A stretch of DNA of 44,956 bases, from assembly GCA_902783895.1 (NCBI GenBank), contig CACZST010000010.1, forward strand, positions 1 through 44,956, written 5' to 3'. Positions 9,170-28,646 of the stretch are shown piece after piece; the first letter of the stretch is position 1; each line of letters begins with the position of its first letter. The notes beneath the pieces are model-generated. The model saw only the letters and a program-made list of their open reading frames with translations, searched no databases and was not told where the DNA came from. Both the position numbers and the translations under genes were made by a program. Origin of the DNA: an uncultured Erysipelotrichaceae bacterium. GTDB taxonomy: Bacteria > Bacillota_I > Bacilli_A > RF39 > UBA660.

Positions 9170-10915
9170 TTAATTGTATTCTAATATATCTTCAAACATA
9201 TTTATTATATCTTGATTATCTGGGTTAAGTAAATCTTTTATATTAAAATTTTCTTTTTTATATATAAAAGGTCTTTTTTTATTGTTGAATTCATCTTTTA
9301 TTATTTCCCATTCATCTAATGATGTAGAAATCAAATTATAGTGCTTATTTAATAATTTTTCGATTGTTTCTTCTATATTTATTAATTGTTCATTAAATAT
9401 TTGTGATGTTCTTGAAGTTCGATAAACAAATATTAAATTCTCATCACTTGCGGCTTTTAAGGTTCCATCTAATACAATTGAGGCCGCATCACTGTAATCA
9501 GGATTTAAAATCAATTCATTTAAATCTTCAAGTTTTGGTAATATTTCTTTCATTAATCTTTTATTAAATTTTGACAATGTATTATCTATTCTTATTAGTT
9601 TTATTTGATTTATTTTTTCTAATATTTCTGAATTGTCCGAGTTTGTTTTTTCTGGTGTTTTTGGTTTATCATTTGAAAAATCATCATTAATAGGAAGTGG
9701 AGTAGGTTCAGGTATATATTTTTTTTCTTTATTTACTTGTTTTGTTTCTGTTTCTACGACTTCTGGTTTAGAAGAAAGTTCTTTTTTAGGTATTTCTTGT
9801 TTGATAACTGGCTCTTTTTGTGAAACAATATTATTTAATTCATTGTTTTCTTTACTTGTTCCTAATTTTATTAGTAGAATTTCGAACAATAGTTTGGTAT
9901 TGTTGGTATCTTTCATTTCTAATATGTATTTATTTAGTTCTTCAATATATTTTAGAACTAATGTTCGTGGTATATTTTCTGAAAATTCTTCATAAACAGA
10001 GGTATTTTGAATATTATTTTTAAAATATTCTGGTGCTTCTTTGAAAAGTAGTAAATTTCTTAGGAAATTTATCATTTCTTCGGTAATTTTGATGAAATTC
10101 TTACCAGATTCTTCAAATTTGTCAGTATTTTCTAAAATTTCGTCTATTTTTCCATTAAATATTTCAGAAATTAGTTTACTCATTTGGATTGGGGTAATTG
10201 TTCCATTTATATCATGAATATCATCTATTGTTATTTTTCCGTCTGAGTAAGCTCTTGCTTGATCTAACATTCCAACTGAGTCACGCATTCCACCAGCAGA
10301 TAATCTTGCGATTTCATAAAGAGCATCATTATCAATTTCTATATTTTCTTTTTGGGCAATTTTGCTTAAGTTTTCCACAATTGCTACATCAGAAATTCGT
10401 TTAAAGTCAAATCTTTGGCATCTTGATATTATTGTTTCAGGTATTTTATGAGGATCAGTTGTTGCTAGAACAAAAATTACATGAGCAGGGGGTTCTTCTA
10501 ATGTTTTTAATAAGGCATTAAAGGCACCCGTTGTCAGCATATGTACTTCATCAATAATATATACTTTGTATTTACCTAATGAAGGTACTAAATTAACGTT
10601 ATTTCTTAATTCTCTTATTTCATCAACACCGTTATTTGATGCGGCATCTATCTCAATTATATCGCTATTGTTTTTTTCAGTACAACTTGGACATTGGCCA
10701 CATGGAACACAATTTTCGAGGTTTGAACAATTTACTATTTTACCAAATATTTTAGCAATACTTGTTTTTCCTGTCCCACGAGGTCCAGCAAATAAATAAG
10801 CATGATTTATTTGTTTTTTTTCCACAGAATTTTTTATTATTCTTACTATTGTGTTTTGACCACAAACATCTTCAAGTGTTTTAGGTCTATATTTTCTATA
10901 TAATGCTTGATACAT
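9170..10915 (-). CDS. dnaX: DNA polymerase III gamma/tau subunit
   Basis: DnaX is the ATPase motor of the clamp loader. It has Walker A (GPRGTGKTS, residues 44-52), a four-cysteine zinc module (residues about 63-78), the DEVHML Walker B (near 124) and the SRC motif (SRCQRFDF, near 165). After about residue 370 comes an acidic, proline-rich linker, then a tau-type C-terminal region. An A8 run at codons 397-399 forms an A AAA AAA slippery site. A -1 shift there meets a stop after three codons and would give a gamma-like product of about 402 aa. The gene heads a leftward operon with ebfC, recR, bofA, holB, ricT, the trmN6-like gene and rsmI. Confidence 0.96.
   Translation of the reverse strand: MYQALYRKYRPKTLEDVCGQNTIVRIIKNSVEKKQINHAYLFAGPRGTGKTSIAKIFGKIVNCSNLENCVPCGQCPSCTEKNNSDIIEIDAASNNGVDEIRELRNNVNLVPSLGKYKVYIIDEVHMLTTGAFNALLKTLEEPPAHVIFVLATTDPHKIPETIISRCQRFDFKRISDVAIVENLSKIAQKENIEIDNDALYEIARLSAGGMRDSVGMLDQARAYSDGKITIDDIHDINGTITPIQMSKLISEIFNGKIDEILENTDKFEESGKNFIKITEEMINFLRNLLLFKEAPEYFKNNIQNTSVYEEFSENIPRTLVLKYIEELNKYILEMKDTNNTKLLFEILLIKLGTSKENNELNNIVSQKEPVIKQEIPKKELSSKPEVVETETKQVNKEKKYIPEPTPLPINDDFSNDKPKTPEKTNSDNSEILEKINQIKLIRIDNTLSKFNKRLMKEILPKLEDLNELILNPDYSDAASIVLDGTLKAASDENLIFVYRTSRTSQIFNEQLINIEETIEKLLNKHYNLISTSLDEWEIIKDEFNNKKRPFIYKKENFNIKDLLNPDNQDIINMFEDILEYN
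9719..9726 (-). promoter_or_regulatory. Candidate -1 frameshift (slippage) site in dnaX
   Basis: In-frame GAA AAA AAA TAT contains the heptamer A AAA AAA. In the -1 frame the next codons are ATA TAT ACC TGA, so translation would end at once, just after the ATPase domains. E. coli dnaX uses A AAA AAG in the same place, and Thermus uses transcript slippage on an A-run. No strong downstream stem-loop was seen. Confidence 0.5.
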
Positions 10916-10938
10916 TTTTTATCACCCCATCATTTGTT

Positions 10939-10947
10939 ATTATACCA
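10939..10947 (-). promoter_or_regulatory. Extended -10 promoter of dnaX
   Basis: On the minus strand TGGTATAAT (TGn plus TATAAT) lies 23 nt before the dnaX start, and GGGGTGA serves as the ribosome binding site. No good -35 hexamer is visible. Confidence 0.6.
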
Positions 10948-10981
10948 TATTTGCGCATAAAAAAAGAGGGATATCTTAACA

Positions 10982-11386
10982 TTATTTTCTTTTATTTTTA
11001 AAGAAATCCTTTATAATTTTTCTAGAGTTTTCCACATTTTTTAATTGAATTTTTTCGATATTTTTATAATTTATTTGTTTTTCTTGAGGTGCGGCATAAT
11101 ATATTTTTTTTATTCTAGCTTGTTTTAAAACTTCCATGCACATTGGACAAGGTTCTAGTGTAACATATATTTCGCATTCTGAAAGGTGCCATGTTTTCTT
11201 TTTTTTACATGCTTTTTCCACAGAAATTATTTCTGCATGTCTAGTTATAGAGTGTTTTTTTTCTCTTTCATTATGAGCTTTAGAAATTATTATACCTTTT
11301 TCCACAATTACTGCGCCTATTGGAACATCATCTGTTTTTAAACTTTTTTTAGCTTCTTTTAAAGCTATATCTAGATAGTTATTCAT
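10982..11386 (-). CDS. tadA: tRNA-specific adenosine deaminase TadA
   Basis: TadA deaminates A34 to inosine in tRNA-Arg(ACG), allowing wobble decoding. The zinc site is formed by HAEII (with the catalytic Glu, near residues 50-54) and PCPMCMEVL (near 79-87). IGAVIVEKG matches the substrate-side strand of the family. At 134 aa it is slightly shorter than the Bacillus enzyme (about 161 aa). It lies between SRP RNA and dnaX, the same order as in Bacillus (tadA, scr, dnaX), except that SRP RNA is on the other side of tadA here. Confidence 0.95.
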   Translation of the reverse strand: MNNYLDIALKEAKKSLKTDDVPIGAVIVEKGIIISKAHNEREKKHSITRHAEIISVEKACKKKKTWHLSECEIYVTLEPCPMCMEVLKQARIKKIYYAAPQEKQINYKNIEKIQLKNVENSRKIIKDFFKNKRK

Positions 11387-11401
11387 GTGATCACCTCATA
11401 C

Positions 11402-11480
11402 AAAAAAGGTACACACGCTTGGAGGACCTTAAGGCTGCTATCTTCCGATTCTGACCTGATTCAGTCACAAGAGTTGTACC
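11402..11480 (-). ncRNA. ffs: Signal recognition particle RNA (small 4.5S-like type)
   Basis: This is the RNA scaffold of SRP, which binds Ffh and targets membrane proteins. On the minus strand the conserved domain IV loop is visible as TCAGGTCAGAATCGGAAG followed by AGCAGCC. The ends pair (GGTAC at 11480 with GTACC ending at 11408), and GCGTGTGTACC resembles the 3' arm of known SRP RNAs. At about 73 nt plus a T6 tail (11402-11407) it is the short form without an Alu domain. A good promoter lies just upstream. Confidence 0.92.
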
Positions 11481-11486
11481 AATATA

Positions 11487-11515
11487 AATATATCTTATTT
11501 TACTACAAATTTCAA
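11487..11515 (-). promoter_or_regulatory. Promoter of SRP RNA
   Basis: On the minus strand TTGAAA (11510-11515), a 17-nt spacer and TATATT (11487-11492) stand about 7 nt before the first base of the RNA stem at 11480. Spacing and start position agree well with a housekeeping promoter. Confidence 0.8.
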
Positions 11516-11564
11516 TATAAAAGATATAGTTTTCCACAATTAAATATTATTTTAATTTAAATTT

Positions 11565-11618: not shown

Positions 11619-11649
11619 TCTAATTTTCATTTATCATATATTATCCCAA

Positions 11650-11665
11650 TGTTTCACGTGAAACA
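11650..11665. promoter_or_regulatory. parS site 1 (perfect)
   Basis: TGTTTCACGTGAAACA, within a 22-bp perfect palindrome (CAATG...CATTG, 11647-11668). Confidence 0.92.
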
Positions 11666-11758
11666 TTGAGTAAAGTTATACTTATTTATTAGTGATAATG
11701 ATTTTTAGATTTAATTATTTATTAATAAATATTTTATGTTTTTTATATAGTGTTCTTA

Positions 11759-11774
11759 TGTTTCACGTGAAACA
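11759..11774. promoter_or_regulatory. parS site 2 (perfect)
   Basis: TGTTTCACGTGAAACA, within a 24-bp perfect palindrome (CTTATG...CATAAG, 11755-11778). Confidence 0.92.
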
Positions 11775-11883
11775 TAAGATGTATTAAATAGTAAAATTTT
11801 TATTCATATTTGTTTAACCATTAAAAAATAAATATATCTTATATATTTATTAACATTAAATAAAATTTATAATTATGTTATAA

Positions 11884-11899
11884 TGTTTCACGTGAAACA
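11884..11899. promoter_or_regulatory. parS site 3 (perfect)
   Basis: TGTTTCACGTGAAACA. It is followed by TATGAATAA, which looks like a decayed DnaA box at the same spacing as in later units. Confidence 0.92.
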
Positions 11900-11985
11900 T
11901 AGAGTACTATGAATAAATCATTGTTTATTAAGCAAAAAGTATTTTATTGTATTTTTTTATTATAAAAATTTTATTCTCCGATTAA

Positions 11986-12001
11986 TGTTTCACGTGAAAC
12001 A
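11986..12001. promoter_or_regulatory. parS site 4 (perfect)
   Basis: TGTTTCACGTGAAACA, with a perfect DnaA box 8 bp downstream (12010-12018). Confidence 0.92.
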
Positions 12002-12009
12002 TAGAGTGC

Positions 12010-12018
12010 TGTGGATAA
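12010..12018 (-). promoter_or_regulatory. DnaA box paired with parS site 4
   Basis: TGTGGATAA is the reverse complement of the consensus box TTATCCACA, a perfect match. Confidence 0.8.
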
Positions 12019-12094
12019 TCAAATGTTTGTTATTTAGTTTATAAAATTTAATATATAAAAATGTATCTTATTTTTATTTTTTTACTTCGATTAA

Positions 12095-12110
12095 TGTTTC
12101 ACGTGAAACA
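12095..12110. promoter_or_regulatory. parS site 5 (perfect)
   Basis: TGTTTCACGTGAAACA, with a perfect DnaA box 7 bp downstream and a second, one-mismatch box (TGTGGATTA) at 12137-12145. Confidence 0.92.
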
Positions 12111-12117
12111 TAAGTAC

Positions 12118-12126
12118 TGTGGATAA
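12118..12126 (-). promoter_or_regulatory. DnaA box paired with parS site 5
   Basis: TGTGGATAA, perfect reverse-orientation DnaA box. Confidence 0.8.
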
Positions 12127-12232
12127 AATTGTAATTTGTGGATTAATTTTTTTTATTATTTTTAAAAAGAACTAAAAATTGATTAGTATAATTGTATAAT
12201 ATTTATAAATTTATGATAGATTCCTCGTTTAA

Positions 12233-12248
12233 TGTTTCACGTGAAACC
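12233..12248. promoter_or_regulatory. parS site 6 (one change)
   Basis: TGTTTCACGTGAAACC differs from the others only in the last base; the CACGTG core is intact. No DnaA box follows. Confidence 0.85.
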
Positions 12249-12394
12249 TTAGATAATCTTTTTATTAAATTACTATTAGTGCATATTTATATTTTTTTAT
12301 AAATAGAATAGTTAAATTGTATTTCTATTTTAGATAATACTTTTTTTGGTTATTGTATATTTACTTTTTTTTAATTTAATAACTTTTATAATGA

Positions 12395-12410
12395 TGTTTC
12401 ACGTGAAACA
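12395..12410. promoter_or_regulatory. parS site 7 (perfect)
   Basis: TGTTTCACGTGAAACA, with a perfect DnaA box 8 bp downstream. Confidence 0.92.
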
Positions 12411-12418
12411 TAGGATAC

Positions 12419-12427
12419 TGTGGATAA
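12419..12427 (-). promoter_or_regulatory. DnaA box paired with parS site 7
   Basis: TGTGGATAA, perfect reverse-orientation DnaA box. Confidence 0.8.
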
Positions 12428-12506
12428 AATATAATTTGCGAATCATTTGTTTTACTTATAATTTTTTTATTTCGATACCTTCATTTAAAATACGTATTTA
12501 TGGCTA

Positions 12507-12522
12507 TGTTTCACGTGAAACA
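12507..12522. promoter_or_regulatory. parS site 8 (perfect)
   Basis: TGTTTCACGTGAAACA, with a perfect DnaA box 7 bp downstream. Confidence 0.92.
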
Positions 12523-12529
12523 TAAGTAC

Positions 12530-12538
12530 TGTGGATAA
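12530..12538 (-). promoter_or_regulatory. DnaA box paired with parS site 8
   Basis: TGTGGATAA, perfect reverse-orientation DnaA box. Confidence 0.8.
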
Positions 12539-12573
12539 AACTATAATTGTTATTAAACACTTATTTCTTATGA

Positions 12574-12589
12574 TGTTTCATGTGAAACA
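12574..12589. promoter_or_regulatory. parS site 9 (one change in core)
   Basis: TGTTTCATGTGAAACA has CATGTG in place of the CACGTG core, so it may bind more weakly. Confidence 0.8.
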
Positions 12590-12632
12590 TAGGATATATT
12601 TATATTGATATTTGTATTTATATTTTATAAAA

Positions 12633-12660
12633 AAACAATGTTTCACGTGAAACATTGTTT
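12633..12660 (-). terminator. parS site 10, also the gyrA terminator hairpin
   Basis: A perfect 28-bp palindrome (AAACAATG-TTTCACGTGAAA-CATTGTTT) has the parS 16-mer at 12639-12654 as its centre. It starts 6 bp past the gyrA stop codon, and on the minus strand it runs straight into a T-tract. The RNA would fold into a long stem followed by U residues, so one sequence appears to serve as both centromere site and intrinsic terminator. Confidence 0.8.
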
Positions 12661-12666
12661 ATATTT

Positions 12667-15126
12667 CTATTCAGTTGTAGTTGTTTCTTCTGGTTGCTCT
12701 TCAGTTACTTCTTTTTCTAATAGGGCAACTGTACTTACTTTTTGATTATCTTTAAGGTTAATTAATTTAACACCTTGGGCAACTCTTCCTGTTGTAGATA
12801 CTTGTTCTACTGATAATCTAATAACTATACCATTATTAGTTATAATCATTAAATCTTCGTCACCTTTTACTAATTTGAATGATACTATATTTCCATTTTT
12901 CTCTGTTACATTAAGGGCTTTTACACCTTTGCTACCTCTATGAGTCATTCTGTATTCATTTACATCTGTACGTTTTCCGTAACCATTACTTGTTGCAACA
13001 AGTATTTCTTGATTTTCTAAGGCAATTTCACAGCCTACACAGATATTATCGTCAGTTAATTCAATACCTTTAACTCCTGATGCAGTTCTTCCCATAACTC
13101 TTATTTCATTTTCGTTAAATCTTATCATTCTTCCATTAGAAGAGGCTATAATAATTTCATTATCTCCAGTTGTCTTTTTAACTGATATTAATTGATCGTT
13201 TTCTTTTAATGATATTGCTATTTTTCCACTACTTCTAATATTTTCAAATTCAGATATTGCTGTTCTTTTAATTAAACCCTTTTGTGTACAAAATACAATA
13301 AATTGATTTTCTTCATTTTTATCGATTTTTAACATTGCTGTTACTTCTTCACCTTTTTCAAAAGGAAGTAGGTTAACTATTGGTATGCCTTTTGATTGTC
13401 TATTGAATTGAGGAATTTCATATCCTTTTATTCTATAGGCTTTTCCCTTATTAGTAAAGAACATTAGATAATCATGTGTTGTTATTGGGATTAATTTTTC
13501 TACGAAATCTTCTTCATTAGTACTCATTCCTTTTATTCCAACACCACCACGATTTTGTGTTTTGTATGTTTCGCTTGTTATACGTTTGATATAACCCTTA
13601 TTAGTTAGTGTTACAACGATGTTTTCTACAGGTATGAGTGATTCATCCTCTATATAATCAATCGCTGTCATATCTATGTTTGTACGTCTCTCATCGGCAT
13701 ATTTATTTTTAATTTCTAGCATTTCTGTCTTAATTATATCTAATACTTTTTGTTCAGATGCTAGTATTTCTTTATACATTTTTATTTTTTCTAATAAATC
13801 ATTTAATTCTGATTCGATCTTATCTCTTTCTAAGCCTGTTAAACGACGTAATTTTAATTCTAAGATTGCTTCTGCTTGAATTTCGCTTAATTTATATTTT
13901 TCAATTAATTTTTCTTTAGCTATTGTGTCAGTTTTGGCTTCTTTGATAATTTTAATGAAATCATCAATATTATCTAAGGCTATTTTATAACCTTCCAAAA
14001 TATGAACACGTTTTTCTGCTTTATCTAATTCAAATTTAGTTCTTCTTATGATTACTTCTTTTTGATAATCAACGTATTTTGAAATAATGTCTTTAAGTCC
14101 AAGGGTTCTTGGAGTTTTATTGTCTATCATTAATAGGATAATTCCATAAGTTGTTTGAAATTGAGTATGTTTATATAAGTTATTTAATACAACTTGTGGA
14201 TTTGCGTCCTTTTTAAGTGTGATGGTTATTTTGATACCATCTTTTAAATCTGTATGATAATCTGCGATTCCATCTATTACTTTTGTGTGTACAAGTTCAG
14301 CAACTTTATTTTTCAAATCTGATGTATTAACACCATAAGGAACTTCATCGATTACAATATAATGACGACCATTTTTTTCTTCAATTGTTGCTTTACTTCT
14401 TATTGTTATTGTCCCACGACCGGTTTCATAAGCTTTTTTGATTCCACTATTTCCAAGGATTGATGCTCCTGTTGGAAAATCTGGTCCTTTGATATAATTC
14501 ATTAAACCTTCAGTATCAATTTCTGGATTATCAATATAAGCGATACATCCATCTATTACTTCGCCTAGGTTATGTGGGGGAATATTTGTGGCCATTCCAA
14601 CTGCAATACCCATAGTTCCATTAACTAATATATTAGGAAATCTAGAAGGTAATATAGCTGGTTCTTTTTCTGATTCATCGAAGTTTGGAACAAAATCAAC
14701 TGTGTTTTTATTTATATCCCTTAATAATTCTAAAGATATTTTTGCTAATCTTGATTCGGTATAACGCATGGCTGCTGCGCCATATCCTTCAATATTACCA
14801 AAGTTTCCGTGGCCATCTACAAGCATGTATCTATAACTAAAATCTTGCGCCATACGAACCATGGCTTCATATATACTTGAATCACCATGAGGGTGATATT
14901 TACCCATAACATCTCCAACTATACGAGCACTTTTTTTATGGGGTTTATCTGGTGTGTAACCAGATTCATACATTGAATATAAAATACGTCTATGTACGGG
15001 TTTTAAACCATCTCTTAAATCGGGAAGGGCACGAGAGGCAATAACACTCATGGAATATTCAATGAATGAGCTTTCAACTTCATTTACAATATTATTTTCT
15101 TGTAATCTATCTCTTGTATGATCCAT
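12667..15126 (-). CDS. gyrA: DNA gyrase subunit A
   Basis: GyrA is the breakage-reunion subunit of gyrase, which puts negative supercoils into DNA. It has the winged-helix region ([15 protein letters not shown], residues about 34-48), the catalytic tyrosine in [10 protein letters not shown] (near 121) and six C-terminal beta-pinwheel blades. The GyrA box, needed for DNA wrapping, reads QNRGGVG (near residue 525), a variant of the QRRGGRG consensus. The tail is acidic and threonine-rich. The length of 819 aa is normal. It lies 10 nt after gyrB and ends in the terminator formed by parS site 10. Confidence 0.98.
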
Positions 15127-18311: not shown

Positions 18312-18767
18312 TTAAAATTTGGTTGTTTTTCGACTTTTTAAAATTAATAGTAATTTTGATGCTCTTAAAATTTGATTTTCGAGGCTTTCAAGTGAAATAT
18401 CCATTATTTGTGGCTGACCTGTTCGGAAATATATTTTGGATTTGTTTTCATATTCTTCATAATGGGTAATATTATTAAGTGATATCCAACAGACATTTAT
18501 ATTTGTATATGATTTAATTGGGAAAAAAATTATTTCCCGAGTTTCCTCAATAATTACAGGTAATTTGTATTTCATTCCAAGCATCTTTTGAGCGCTTTTA
18601 ACTCTCCCTTCAAAAGTGCTTCCAAAATATTCACAGCTATATCTTATAATATCTGTTGGCGGCATGGAAATTTCTATTTCTTTTTCTGCTTCGATCACTT
18701 TACTTGTTTTCCCTAAACCTATAATTGCATTTGTGTTACTATTAATTTCATAATTTAAATTAACCAT
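18312..18767 (-). CDS. comK: ComK-family competence transcription factor
   Basis: ComK is the master activator of competence genes in Bacillus and binds paired AAAA-N5-TTTT boxes. The diagnostic ComK block is present: IIRYSCEYFGSTFEGRVKSA (near residues 39-58), then KLPVIIEE, IIFFPIKSY and CWISLNNI, with a final FRTGQ...SLESLENQILRAS. The start at 18767 (151 aa) follows AAGGGAGG; an in-frame ATG at 18785 is less likely. Terminators on both sides make it a separate unit placed between dnaN and recF, not the usual site for comK. Its N- and C-termini are shorter than in Bacillus (192 aa). The target genes are not in the window. Confidence 0.9.
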   Translation of the reverse strand: MVNLNYEINSNTNAIIGLGKTSKVIEAEKEIEISMPPTDIIRYSCEYFGSTFEGRVKSAQKMLGMKYKLPVIIEETREIIFFPIKSYTNINVCWISLNNITHYEEYENKSKIYFRTGQPQIMDISLESLENQILRASKLLLILKSRKTTKF

Positions 18768-18778
18768 ATAATCCTCCC

Positions 18779-18844
18779 TTGTCATTAATTGACAACTTTC
18801 TTATACTCTTTTTTTATGTCGAAAAAAGTCATTTTTTGTCGAAA
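18779..18844 (-). promoter_or_regulatory. comK upstream control region
   Basis: Just upstream of the comK ribosome binding site lies a perfect inverted repeat (TTGTCA-ttaat-TGACAA, 18779-18795). Farther up, the direct repeat TGTCGAAA occurs at 18817-18824 and again 20 bp on at 18837-18844, two helical turns apart. Between them AAAAAAGTCATTTTTT fits the ComK-box pattern AAAA-N5-TTTT. The fit is loose in such AT-rich DNA, but the exact spacing of the direct repeats points to a regulator site. Confidence 0.45.
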
Positions 18845-19984: not shown

Positions 19985-20134
19985 AAAATTATCTCCTTTT
20001 TTATTATTATTTATTTATATATTCTTTATTATTGATGTGGAAAATGTTGATAACTTATCAAATCTATTGTTTTTTAATGGATAATTCGAATTATTTTAGG
20101 TGAATTATCTGTGGAAAAAGTCGAATTTTGCACT
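19985..20134. other. dnaA-dnaN intergenic DnaA-box cluster (one half of a bipartite oriC)
   Basis: Non-coding and AT-rich, it contains TGTGGAAAA at 20036-20044 and 20110-20118 and TGTTGATAA at 20045-20053, each one base away from the consensus box TGTGGATAA. Together with the cluster upstream of dnaA it matches the bipartite origin plan of Bacillus (box clusters on both sides of dnaA). Confidence 0.6.
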
Positions 20135-21481
20135 TTATTTTATTTGATTAATTATTTTTGATATTTCCACTTCTAAATTTTTATCTTTTTTTAATTCTCT
20201 TTTTATTTTTGCAACTGAATGCATAACTGTTGTATGGTCTTTTCCACCAAATTCACTACCTATTTTTGGTAGTGATTCTTTTAGGTGGACACGACATATA
20301 TACATACCTATTTGTCTTGGAACAGCAATTTTGGATAACCTTTTTTTAGATTTAATATCGTCGGCTGTGATATTGTAATTATTAGCGACTAATTGAATTA
20401 CTTGGTCAATTTTGTTTTTAGAAATGATATTTTTACCTATATAATCTTTTAAAGCTTCAATTGCTAGGTCTAATGTTATTTCAGATCCATTCATTATGGT
20501 TGCGTAGGCAAATACTCTTGTTAATGCACCTTCTAATTTTCTAATATCTGTGGTGCAGTTATTGGCAATATATTCTTTTACCTCTGGTGAAACTAGTTCA
20601 GTAATGCCTTGTGCTTCAATTTTCTTATCTAAAATGGCCATACGTAAGTCAAAATCTGGTGGGAGAATATCGATTGTCAATCCCCAGTTAAATCTTGTTC
20701 TTAATCTTTCTTCAAGTTTTTTTAAATCATCTGGTGATCTATCTGATGATATTATTATTTGTTTGTTTTTATTGTGTAAATCATTAAATGTGTTAAAAAA
20801 TTCTTGTTGAGTTTTGCTAGCAATTTCTAGATATTGAATATCATCAATCATTAATACATCAATATCTCTATATTTTCTTTTAAAATTATCCACAGCTTTG
20901 AAGTTACTTGTTTCATTTTTTCTATATATATTAAGGAAATCATCAACAAATTTTTCACTTGTTACGTAAAGGACACGTTTATTTGATGTGGACATTATAT
21001 AATTTCCAATAGCATGCATTAGATGCGTTTTTCCTAAACCACTATTACCATATATAAATAGGGGATTATACATTGAACCTGGTTTTTCCGCAACTGCCAG
21101 ACCAATAGCTTTGGCAAATTTGTTGGAATTTCCTGATATAAAGTTATCAAAATTATATCTATTATCAAGTCCGCTTTCGAATATTGAGTCAGTTTTTTCT
21201 ACTTTTTCTTCTGTTTTAGGGATTCGTTTGTTTTTTTCTTCTTCAGTAATGTATTCAAATTTAAATATTGAACCTGTTACTTCAAGGAATGTTTCTTTTA
21301 TAATTTCGCCATAATTTTCTTGAAGATGTTTTTTGTGAACATCATATGGAACTTGTATAACAGCAAATTCGTCATTTAATTCAATAAGTTTAGTATCTTT
21401 AAACCACGTTTGATAAAGGACGGGTTTAAGTTTAATTTCAATTTTTGAAAGAAAAACTTTCCACATACTTTCTAAATCCAT
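20135..21481 (-). CDS. dnaA: Chromosomal replication initiator DnaA
   Basis: DnaA binds DnaA boxes and melts the origin. It shows domain I (MWKVFLSKIEIKLKPVLYQTWF), a short linker, the AAA+ domain III with Walker A (GNSGLGKTHLMHAIGN) and Walker B (VLMIDDIQYLE), and the domain IV DNA-binding signature GGKDHTTVMHSVAKI. The start at 21481 (448 aa, MDLESMW) is chosen because GGGGG lies just upstream and the family begins there. The reading frame stays open 171 nt farther up through AT-rich origin DNA, but that stretch codes no known domain. A perfect TTATCCACA lies within the gene at 20886-20894. Confidence 0.98.
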   Translation of the reverse strand: MDLESMWKVFLSKIEIKLKPVLYQTWFKDTKLIELNDEFAVIQVPYDVHKKHLQENYGEIIKETFLEVTGSIFKFEYITEEEKNKRIPKTEEKVEKTDSIFESGLDNRYNFDNFISGNSNKFAKAIGLAVAEKPGSMYNPLFIYGNSGLGKTHLMHAIGNYIMSTSNKRVLYVTSEKFVDDFLNIYRKNETSNFKAVDNFKRKYRDIDVLMIDDIQYLEIASKTQQEFFNTFNDLHNKNKQIIISSDRSPDDLKKLEERLRTRFNWGLTIDILPPDFDLRMAILDKKIEAQGITELVSPEVKEYIANNCTTDIRKLEGALTRVFAYATIMNGSEITLDLAIEALKDYIGKNIISKNKIDQVIQLVANNYNITADDIKSKKRLSKIAVPRQIGMYICRVHLKESLPKIGSEFGGKDHTTVMHSVAKIKRELKKDKNLEVEISKIINQIK

Positions 21482-21507
21482 AAATATACCCCCTAAAAAG
21501 CAGTAAT

Positions 21508-21536
21508 CTAATAAACATTTTACATTATTTTGACAA
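21508..21536 (-). promoter_or_regulatory. Probable dnaA promoter
   Basis: On the minus strand TTGTCA (21531-21536), a 17-nt spacer and TATTAG (21508-21513) lie 27 nt before the dnaA start. The -10 is imperfect. Confidence 0.5.
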
Positions 21537-21866
21537 AATATGCCATAAAAAAATAAAAAAAATATAAAAAAGATATCCACATCTATTTTTTCCTTAAAAA
21601 ATAAAGTTTTTTTGAGTTTTCCACAAAAAATGTGGAAAACTAAGTAATCCACTTTGTTTAAAAGTTTTCCTTTTCCACATATGTTGATAAATATGTTTTT
21701 TTAAGAAGAAATAAATGTGAAATATATGTGAAAAAAATTATTTAAAAAAATAAGTGTAATTTTAAGTGTGAAAAAAATGTGAAAAAATTGTTACTTTATT
21801 TTTTTTGTTTTTTGATGTATAATTTAGATATTTGTTGCTTGATTTAGGAATGTTTATATAAAATGA

Positions 21867-21895
21867 TTGACATTTTAAGGTTTTATATATATAAT
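21867..21895 (+). promoter_or_regulatory. rpmH promoter, perfect consensus
   Basis: TTGACA (21867-21872), a spacer of exactly 17 nt and TATAAT (21890-21895) form a perfect vegetative promoter, about 37 nt before the rpmH start. This fits the high output needed for a ribosomal protein. A second TATAAT at 21818 may be an extra, weaker start. Confidence 0.85.
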
Positions 21896-21931
21896 TATTA
21901 AAGCAATTAATTTGTTTTGGGAGGTGGATTT

Positions 21932-22054
21932 ATGAAAAGAACATTTCAACCTAATACTAGAAGAAGAAGTAAAAAAATGGGCTTTTTTGCGCGTATGAAA
22001 TCATCTATTGTTAGTAGAAGAAGAAAAAAAGGTCGTAAAGTTTTAGCTCGTTAA
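21932..22054 (+). CDS. rpmH: 50S ribosomal protein L34
   Basis: L34 is a small basic protein of the large subunit. It begins [19 protein letters not shown] and ends [12 protein letters not shown], the family's start and end. At 40 aa it is four residues shorter than the usual 44; the loss is in the middle, after ARMKSS. A GGGAGGTGG ribosome binding site precedes the ATG. It leads the rpmH-rnpA-yidC-jag operon, separated from rnpA by a terminator hairpin. Confidence 0.95.
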
Positions 22055-22057
22055 TCG

Positions 22058-22080
22058 ACCACTGCGATGCAGTGGTTTTT
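22058..22080 (+). terminator. rpmH terminator/attenuator
   Basis: ACCACTGC-gat-GCAGTGGT is followed by T residues, directly after the rpmH stop codon. It probably lowers transcription into rnpA, so that L34 is made in excess. Confidence 0.85.
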
Positions 22081-22100
22081 ATTAATCTATAGGAGTATAT

Positions 22101-28594: not shown

Positions 28595-28646
28595 TCGGGA
28601 AATAATTTTTATAAAGATGTTTTATTTTTATTGAATTATTTCCCGA
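28595..28646. promoter_or_regulatory. Inverted repeat of Noc-type half sites at the noc promoter
   Basis: A perfect 13-bp inverted repeat: TCGGGAAATAATT (28595-28607) and AATTATTTCCCGA (28634-28646), 26 bp apart. Each arm contains the half site (GGGAAAT / ATTTCCC) of the Bacillus Noc-binding sequence ATTTCCCGGGAAAT, but the arms point outward. The right arm sits in the -35/spacer region of the noc promoter, so binding could repress transcription. Autoregulation is an inference. Confidence 0.6.

Follow-up and report, generated by a model that had tools for sequence, protein, structure and literature searches.

A dense parS array near the replication origin of uncultured Bacilli, with DnaA boxes at fixed distance and side in one clade

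Known links between replication initiation and centromeres

It is still an open question how bacteria ensure that chromosome separation comes after the initiation of replication. The links described so far, i.e. Soj with DnaA in Bacillus, DnaA at the centromere of Caulobacter and ParB2 with RctB in Vibrio, differ from one another and come without a clear DNA geometry. The Soj/Spo0J/parS system of Bacillus subtilis has in common with the locus described here the same 16-bp parS, ParA beside ParB and a ParA-DnaA link; to our knowledge, the parS sites of B. subtilis are not accompanied by a DnaA box each.

The closest precedent is Caulobacter crescentus. According to the review PMC6399470, which covers Mera et al. 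2014, DnaA binds boxes of the centromere region there via its domain IV and is required for segregation, and the likeness lies in the presence of DnaA boxes within an oriC-proximal parS region, which is what is found in the present array. Other systems resemble it in part: cisII and cisMP of Deinococcus radiodurans unite DnaA boxes and ParB repeats in one element (PMC7671480), ori2 of Vibrio cholerae, with rctA and parS2, places a centromere within initiator-binding control sites and displays antagonism between ParB and the initiator (PMC6090056), the DnaA-box clusters (DBCs) of B. subtilis restrain initiation from boxes outside oriC (PMC5295017), and Myxococcus xanthus possesses a dense origin-proximal cluster of 24 parS (PMC3778016).

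The parS array in the gyrA–SRP RNA interval

The window, i.e. the whole stretch of 44,956 nucleotides that was analysed, contains ten matches to the 16-bp parS palindrome TGTTTCACGTGAAACA near oriC, between positions 11650 and 12654, of which eight are perfect and two (sites 6 and 9) carry one change (Table 1); the chance expectation for the entire window is 0.18 sites, with up to 3 mismatches allowed. The scan with TGTTTCACGTGAAACA bears out the ten sites, eight of them perfect, of the original prediction, as well as its perfect TGTGGATAA located 7–8 bp after sites 4, 5, 7 and 8, and the flanks of the units, which had been taken for diverged copies of one repeat, are indeed 62–84% identical over 50 nt. 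The array takes up the whole interval from gyrA to the SRP RNA gene, beyond which lie tadA and dnaX; 12 bp separate the last base of site 10 (12654) from the end of gyrA (12667), and the start of site 1 is 160 bp away from the SRP RNA, on its upstream side. The palindrome and T run at site 10 could form a terminator-like hairpin for gyrA. The genes dnaA and dnaN and the GC-skew switch are 6–9 kb away from the array, and the predicted distance of about 9 kb to dnaA holds for the 5' end of this gene, its 3' end being 7.5 kb away.

Table 1. Features of the array and its surroundings, with positions in the window.
Feature	Position	Strand	Basis or remark
Five same-orientation TTTTCCACA boxes in dnaX/tadA (10371, 10818, 11028, 11214, 11298)	10371..11306	+	
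tadA	10982..11386	-	far-side boundary of the array
SRP RNA gene	11393..11490	-	array boundary; RF00169, 52.3 bits
DnaA box TTTTCCACA	11530..11538	+	immediately upstream of the promoter of the SRP RNA gene
parS site 1, perfect	11650..11665	.	TGTTTCACGTGAAACA match; tadA/SRP end
parS site 2, perfect	11759..11774	.	TGTTTCACGTGAAACA match
parS site 3, perfect	11884..11899	.	TGTTTCACGTGAAACA match
DnaA-box relic TATGAATAA	11908-11916		2 mismatches; after site 3 at the usual spot
parS site 4, perfect	11986..12001	.	TGTTTCACGTGAAACA match
DnaA box TTATCCACA	12010..12018	-	8 bp after site 4, gyrA/oriC side
parS site 5, perfect	12095..12110	.	TGTTTCACGTGAAACA match
DnaA box TTATCCACA	12118..12126	-	7 bp after site 5
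DnaA box TAATCCACA	12137..12145	-	1 mismatch
parS site 6	12233..12248	.	one change, last base
parS site 7, perfect	12395..12410	.	TGTTTCACGTGAAACA match
DnaA box TTATCCACA	12419..12427	-	8 bp after site 7
parS site 8, perfect	12507..12522	.	TGTTTCACGTGAAACA match
DnaA box TTATCCACA	12530..12538	-	7 bp after site 8
parS site 9	12574..12589	.	one change, central
parS site 10, perfect	12639..12654	.	TGTTTCACGTGAAACA match; core of a 28-bp palindrome, with T run, just after gyrA
gyrA	12667..15126	-	oriC-side boundary of the array
dnaA	20135..21488	-	oriC region with flanks 19985-22100: TTTTCCACA boxes, GC-skew switch
Noc-like protein, 709 aa	28693..30822	+	NBS-type residues, long Q/N-rich tail

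In the rest of the draft genome of the window species (1,035,072 bp in 51 contigs, 78% complete), there is no parS with up to 2 mismatches and thus no second group of comparable density, in agreement with the predicted confinement of parS to a single oriC-proximal cluster. A comparison of the interval in relatives shows the position of this cluster to be conserved, both within the genus (38 genomes) and in other genera (30 genomes). Within the genus, a parS cluster is present in the gyrA/SRP RNA/tadA interval of all 38 genomes in which the interval is assembled (31 of the 31 examined first and 7 of the 7 held out); all of these are drafts in which the arrays often end contigs, and where a contig ends inside the array, only one flanking gene is visible. 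Genomes of the genus without parS were rejected as counter-examples, the gyrA-tadA interval being missing from them or cut by a contig end. In other genera of the family, clusters of 2–9 sites occupy the gyrA-tadA-dnaX segment (30 genomes of 23 genera). Other families of the class have 0–3 parS, found, where inspected, 1–3 kb beyond gyrA or in dnaX-recR-rsmI. Given this family-wide location and the sparse sites in other families, the dense array is no peculiarity of this genome but a trait of the family, an enlargement of an older parS position.

The restriction of parS to one cluster and the sharing of the locus across the family make it very probable that the array is a chromosomal ParABS centromere, ancestral to the family; this high confidence belongs to the centromere part alone. 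Plasmid centromeres lie beside parAB, and the array lies between gyrA and SRP RNA/tadA, with parB about 24–38 kb away in genomes that have both on one contig. A plasmid origin of the array was rejected, as no similar plasmid record was found.

The arrays vary considerably in their fine structure. In several species, the array has turned into a short tandem repeat with a period of 37–73 bp. Many parS of the relatives' arrays are embedded in longer palindromes, the arms of which vary in sequence and stay complementary: palindromic arms of at least 5 bp surround 62 sites, compared with about 16 expected when arms are re-paired within genomes. Terminators explain few of these extended palindromes because T runs are present in only some, and template-switch repair of quasi-palindromes is a possible source. 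In other families of Bacilli, parS is found beside a T-box-like leader (GGGTGGCACCACG), probably that of serS.

The ParB-like protein encoded in the window scores 266 bits against the Noc model, under the cut-off of that model, and its best match is a solved Noc. At the four residues that set the specificity for parS versus NBS (PMC7383237), this Noc-like protein reads Q-K-N-R, the NBS type. The same genome encodes ParA and, adjoining it on another contig (contig 31), a separate ParB of 291 aa with parS-type specificity residues. The ParB of the genus has R173 and N178 (Caulobacter numbering), as in parS binders (PMC7383237); position 201 is G in 29 of 29 relatives and S in the window species, S201 being tolerated among parS-specific variants (PMC7383237). 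Because the Noc-like protein reads Q-K-N-R and the separate ParB has R173 and N178, the array is assigned to ParB, and Noc, initially entertained as a ligand, is rejected, its NBS-like sites being located elsewhere. That the sites serve Noc in nucleoid occlusion, as the encoding of a Noc-like protein 16 kb from the array could suggest, is thus highly improbable: residues of the Q-K-N-R type bind NBS (PMC7383237), NBS (TATTTCCCGGGAAATA) differs from the parS that make up the array, and the only two near-NBS sites of the genome (2 mismatches; 4999 and 28637) lie in the window outside the array. The site at 28637 is 56 bp upstream of the Noc-like gene. The Noc-like protein ends in a Q/N/S-rich tail of 500 residues in which no domain is recognised, and almost every genome of the genus encodes a long version of this kind (about 350–710 aa). 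A scan of viral sequences with the N-terminus of Noc as the query found nothing.

DnaA boxes at fixed spacing and side

In 23 of the 38 genomes of the genus, parS sites are accompanied by boxes of the form TGTGGAWAA at two spacings only, 7 bp or about 18 bp, and the array of the other 15, which serve as a control, lacks such boxes. With all arrays turned to one orientation, 37 of the 37 boxes at 7 bp are on the gyrA/oriC side and 37 of the 37 boxes at 18 bp are on the tadA side (this tally counts 15–20 bp as the 18-bp class). The 258 parS of the 38 genomes have 75 TGTGGAWAA within 60 bp, and 71 of these 75 are at 6–8 or 17–19 bp; dinucleotide-shuffled flanks yield 0.1 boxes in these slots (maximum of 1 in 60 rounds). 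Boxes in the opposite orientation are scattered and number nine, and the seven held-out genomes show the same spacing peaks. The parS and DnaA-box unit of the original prediction therefore recurs in relatives, with boxes that are non-random in number, spacing, orientation and side.

The words are those of the origin itself, with 21 TTWTCCACA in 2.2 kb of dnaA-dnaN spacers of the genus, where TTATCCACA and TTTTCCACA are both present. The window species has the 7-bp type only and its sister group the 18-bp type only. The single 18-bp box in the 7-bp clade is that of site 1, beside the SRP promoter (12 of 14 genomes); the corresponding box of the window is at 11530..11538, and in most related species it is paired with parS site 1 at 18 bp. 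The 11-bp difference between the two classes is only suggestive of helical phasing because the classes stand on opposite sides of parS.

Box types follow the GyrA+DnaX+RecR+YbaB tree. Two early branches (14 genomes) are boxless but for one box in a single genome, and in the derived branch of the genus, 22 of 24 genomes have boxes. Such boxes are absent from the other 23 genera, with one box at 11 bp among their 30 genomes. Because both the early branches and the other genera are boxless, the boxes are a gain that occurred inside the genus, in an array that was already present. The exact unit, parS-N7-8-TGTGGAWAA, is found on 32 contigs among 84,980 GTDB genomes, and all the contigs with at least two such units come from MAGs labelled 'uncultured Bacilli bacterium'. 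Five Dadabacteria genomes have one common parS followed by TGTGGATAA at 8 bp, possibly an independent parS-DnaA-box unit. A single parS among DnaA boxes, possibly within oriC, was observed in Dactylosporangium, Actinoplanes, Bacillus taeanensis, Fibrobacter and a Lachnospiraceae MAG.

The regular spacing could stem from descent only, through duplication of a founder unit that already had a box, with the boxes as neutral passengers. Arrays clearly grow by unit duplication, as the 37–73 bp tandem periods of several species attest, and the box types track the tree, so that part of the regularity is indeed descent; the flanks have diverged, though. Outside parS and the box, 60 of the 74 units are non-redundant (29 in the 7-bp class and 31 in the 18-bp class), yet they keep the box and its distance. 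Moreover, conservation is higher in the columns of the box than in the adjacent sequence further out, also at sites unselected for a box: 0.17 versus 0.03–0.05 for columns 7–15 on the gyrA side, and 0.30 versus 0.06 for columns 18–26 on the tadA side. Descent as the sole cause is accordingly improbable.

The box-rich zone extends beyond the array. In the window, TTWTCCACA reaches 3.9 per kb in the array, 2.3 per kb in the adjoining SRP-tadA-dnaX stretch and 2.8 per kb around dnaA, compared with 0.04 per kb in 549 kb of the other contigs of the genome, so that ordinary sequence is far poorer in boxes than the array, as the original prediction demanded. Over 19 genomes, the SRP-tadA-dnaX stretch has 2.35 boxes per kb, all on one strand. 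Some of these boxes are located inside genes, where V-E-K/N is written as T|GTG|GAA|AA, i.e. as a DnaA box (10371-11306 in the window; gyrA, gyrB, dnaN and rsmI of relatives). V-E-K/N in origin-proximal gyrA, dnaN and rsmI is mostly encoded by TGTGGAAAA, though GTG makes up 6–13% of the Val codons there, and genome-wide only 17 of 117 V-E-K/N use GTG. This codon choice suggests selection for DnaA boxes within genes near oriC. In 515 kb of coding sequence, TGTGGAAAA occurs 16 times, compared with 8.2 expected. Because the excess is mainly on the origin contig, the word is considered an origin-proximal DnaA-box feature, and a genome-wide role of the Chi or KOPS kind was rejected. A ComK-family protein (PF06338, 124 bits) is encoded between recF and dnaN (18312-18785), a position conserved in the genus.

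Such a zone is what would be expected of a cluster for DnaA titration or regulation, of the kind represented by the DBCs of B. subtilis and by datA of Escherichia coli, that happens to share the interval with the centromere, ParB and DnaA having no communication. The enrichment in and beyond the array, the single strand of the boxes and their retention at synonymous sites all fit this explanation. However, titration needs no fixed distance or side relative to parS, and nearly all the boxes of the array obey both, so that titration as the whole account is somewhat unlikely. The wider zone also favours the existence of a DnaA reservoir close to oriC.

Proposed working of the array and comparison with known systems

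The array, its position, its ParB-type sites and the identity, spacing, side and clade distribution of the boxes can be read from the genomes; the binding of ParB and DnaA, their coupling and its direction are predicted. The reading considered reasonably probable is a centromere with DnaA boxes at rigid places in one clade, where DnaA occupancy is coupled to the loading or spreading of ParB. The 291-aa ParB would load at the ten parS and then spread, and loaded ParB would let ParA move and SMC organise the oriC region. In one clade, several units have gained a DnaA box and retained it at a rigid position; DnaA on the box would adjoin ParB in a fixed geometry that exists in two versions about one helical turn apart. 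DnaA occupancy would gate or bound the loading and sliding of ParB at the array, and the array in turn would keep some DnaA near oriC, so that initiation and segregation would read each other's state. As a ParB dimer on parS and DnaA domain IV would be only 7 bp apart, with little space to spare, contact or exclusion between them at loading is likely. The more specific proposal, a composite unit that acts as a ParB-DnaA joint of fixed stereochemistry, with the state of DnaA gating ParB loading or spreading, is put forward tentatively, at somewhat short of an even chance.

DNA-bound proteins can block the sliding of ParB on one side (PMC7053999), and therefore, the boxes could steer ParB clamps or fence the SRP operon. 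The boxes might thus be roadblocks that bound the ParB domain and keep clamps off gyrA and the SRP RNA/tadA/dnaX operon, an idea that suits the site-1 box, which separates the SRP promoter from the array in 12 of the 14 genomes of the 7-bp type. Most of the 7-bp boxes, however, lie between parS sites within the array, where no boundary is needed, and DnaA turns over rapidly at origin regions of B. subtilis (PMC5319796). A pure roadblock is, on balance, unlikely.

Several observations count against the coupling of DnaA occupancy to ParB loading. The 18-bp box of site 1 is also located at the promoter of the SRP RNA gene, which it may serve, an array can do without boxes, as it does in the remainder of the family, and the ParB of the window species has S201 instead of G. 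Furthermore, the control of DnaA by ParA in B. subtilis is independent of parS near oriC (PMC7614844).

The fixed geometry of the boxes suggests that a single piece of DNA couples the copying of the chromosome to its separation. The centromeres of close relatives, some with DnaA boxes at fixed places and some without, form a natural series and a simple test object, and the array is short enough for transfer into B. subtilis or for study with two purified proteins. A literature search, with most subscription journals outside its scope, found no account of parS units in which a DnaA box follows at a constant spacing.

The known systems differ from this array in distinct ways. The cluster of M. 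xanthus is at the parAB locus, and DnaA boxes are not described there in the part of PMC3778016 used here. The DBCs of B. subtilis are not tied to parS in the review PMC5295017. In V. cholerae, the initiator is RctB, parS2 is near 39-mers and the origin is of the plasmid type (PMC6090056), and in cisII and cisMP, which belong to secondary replicons, plasmid-type iterons serve as the origin, with non-canonical boxes overlapping them (PMC7671480). B. subtilis has ten parS over a wide region and controls DnaA via ParA rather than through the position of parS (PMC7614844). Caulobacter, as portrayed in the review PMC6399470, has one parS region in an alphaproteobacterium, whereas here an array in Bacilli, of another phylum, has boxes at two fixed spacings and on fixed sides, with a predicted function. 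What is new here is the DnaA box, at a rigid distance from parS and on a rigid side of it.
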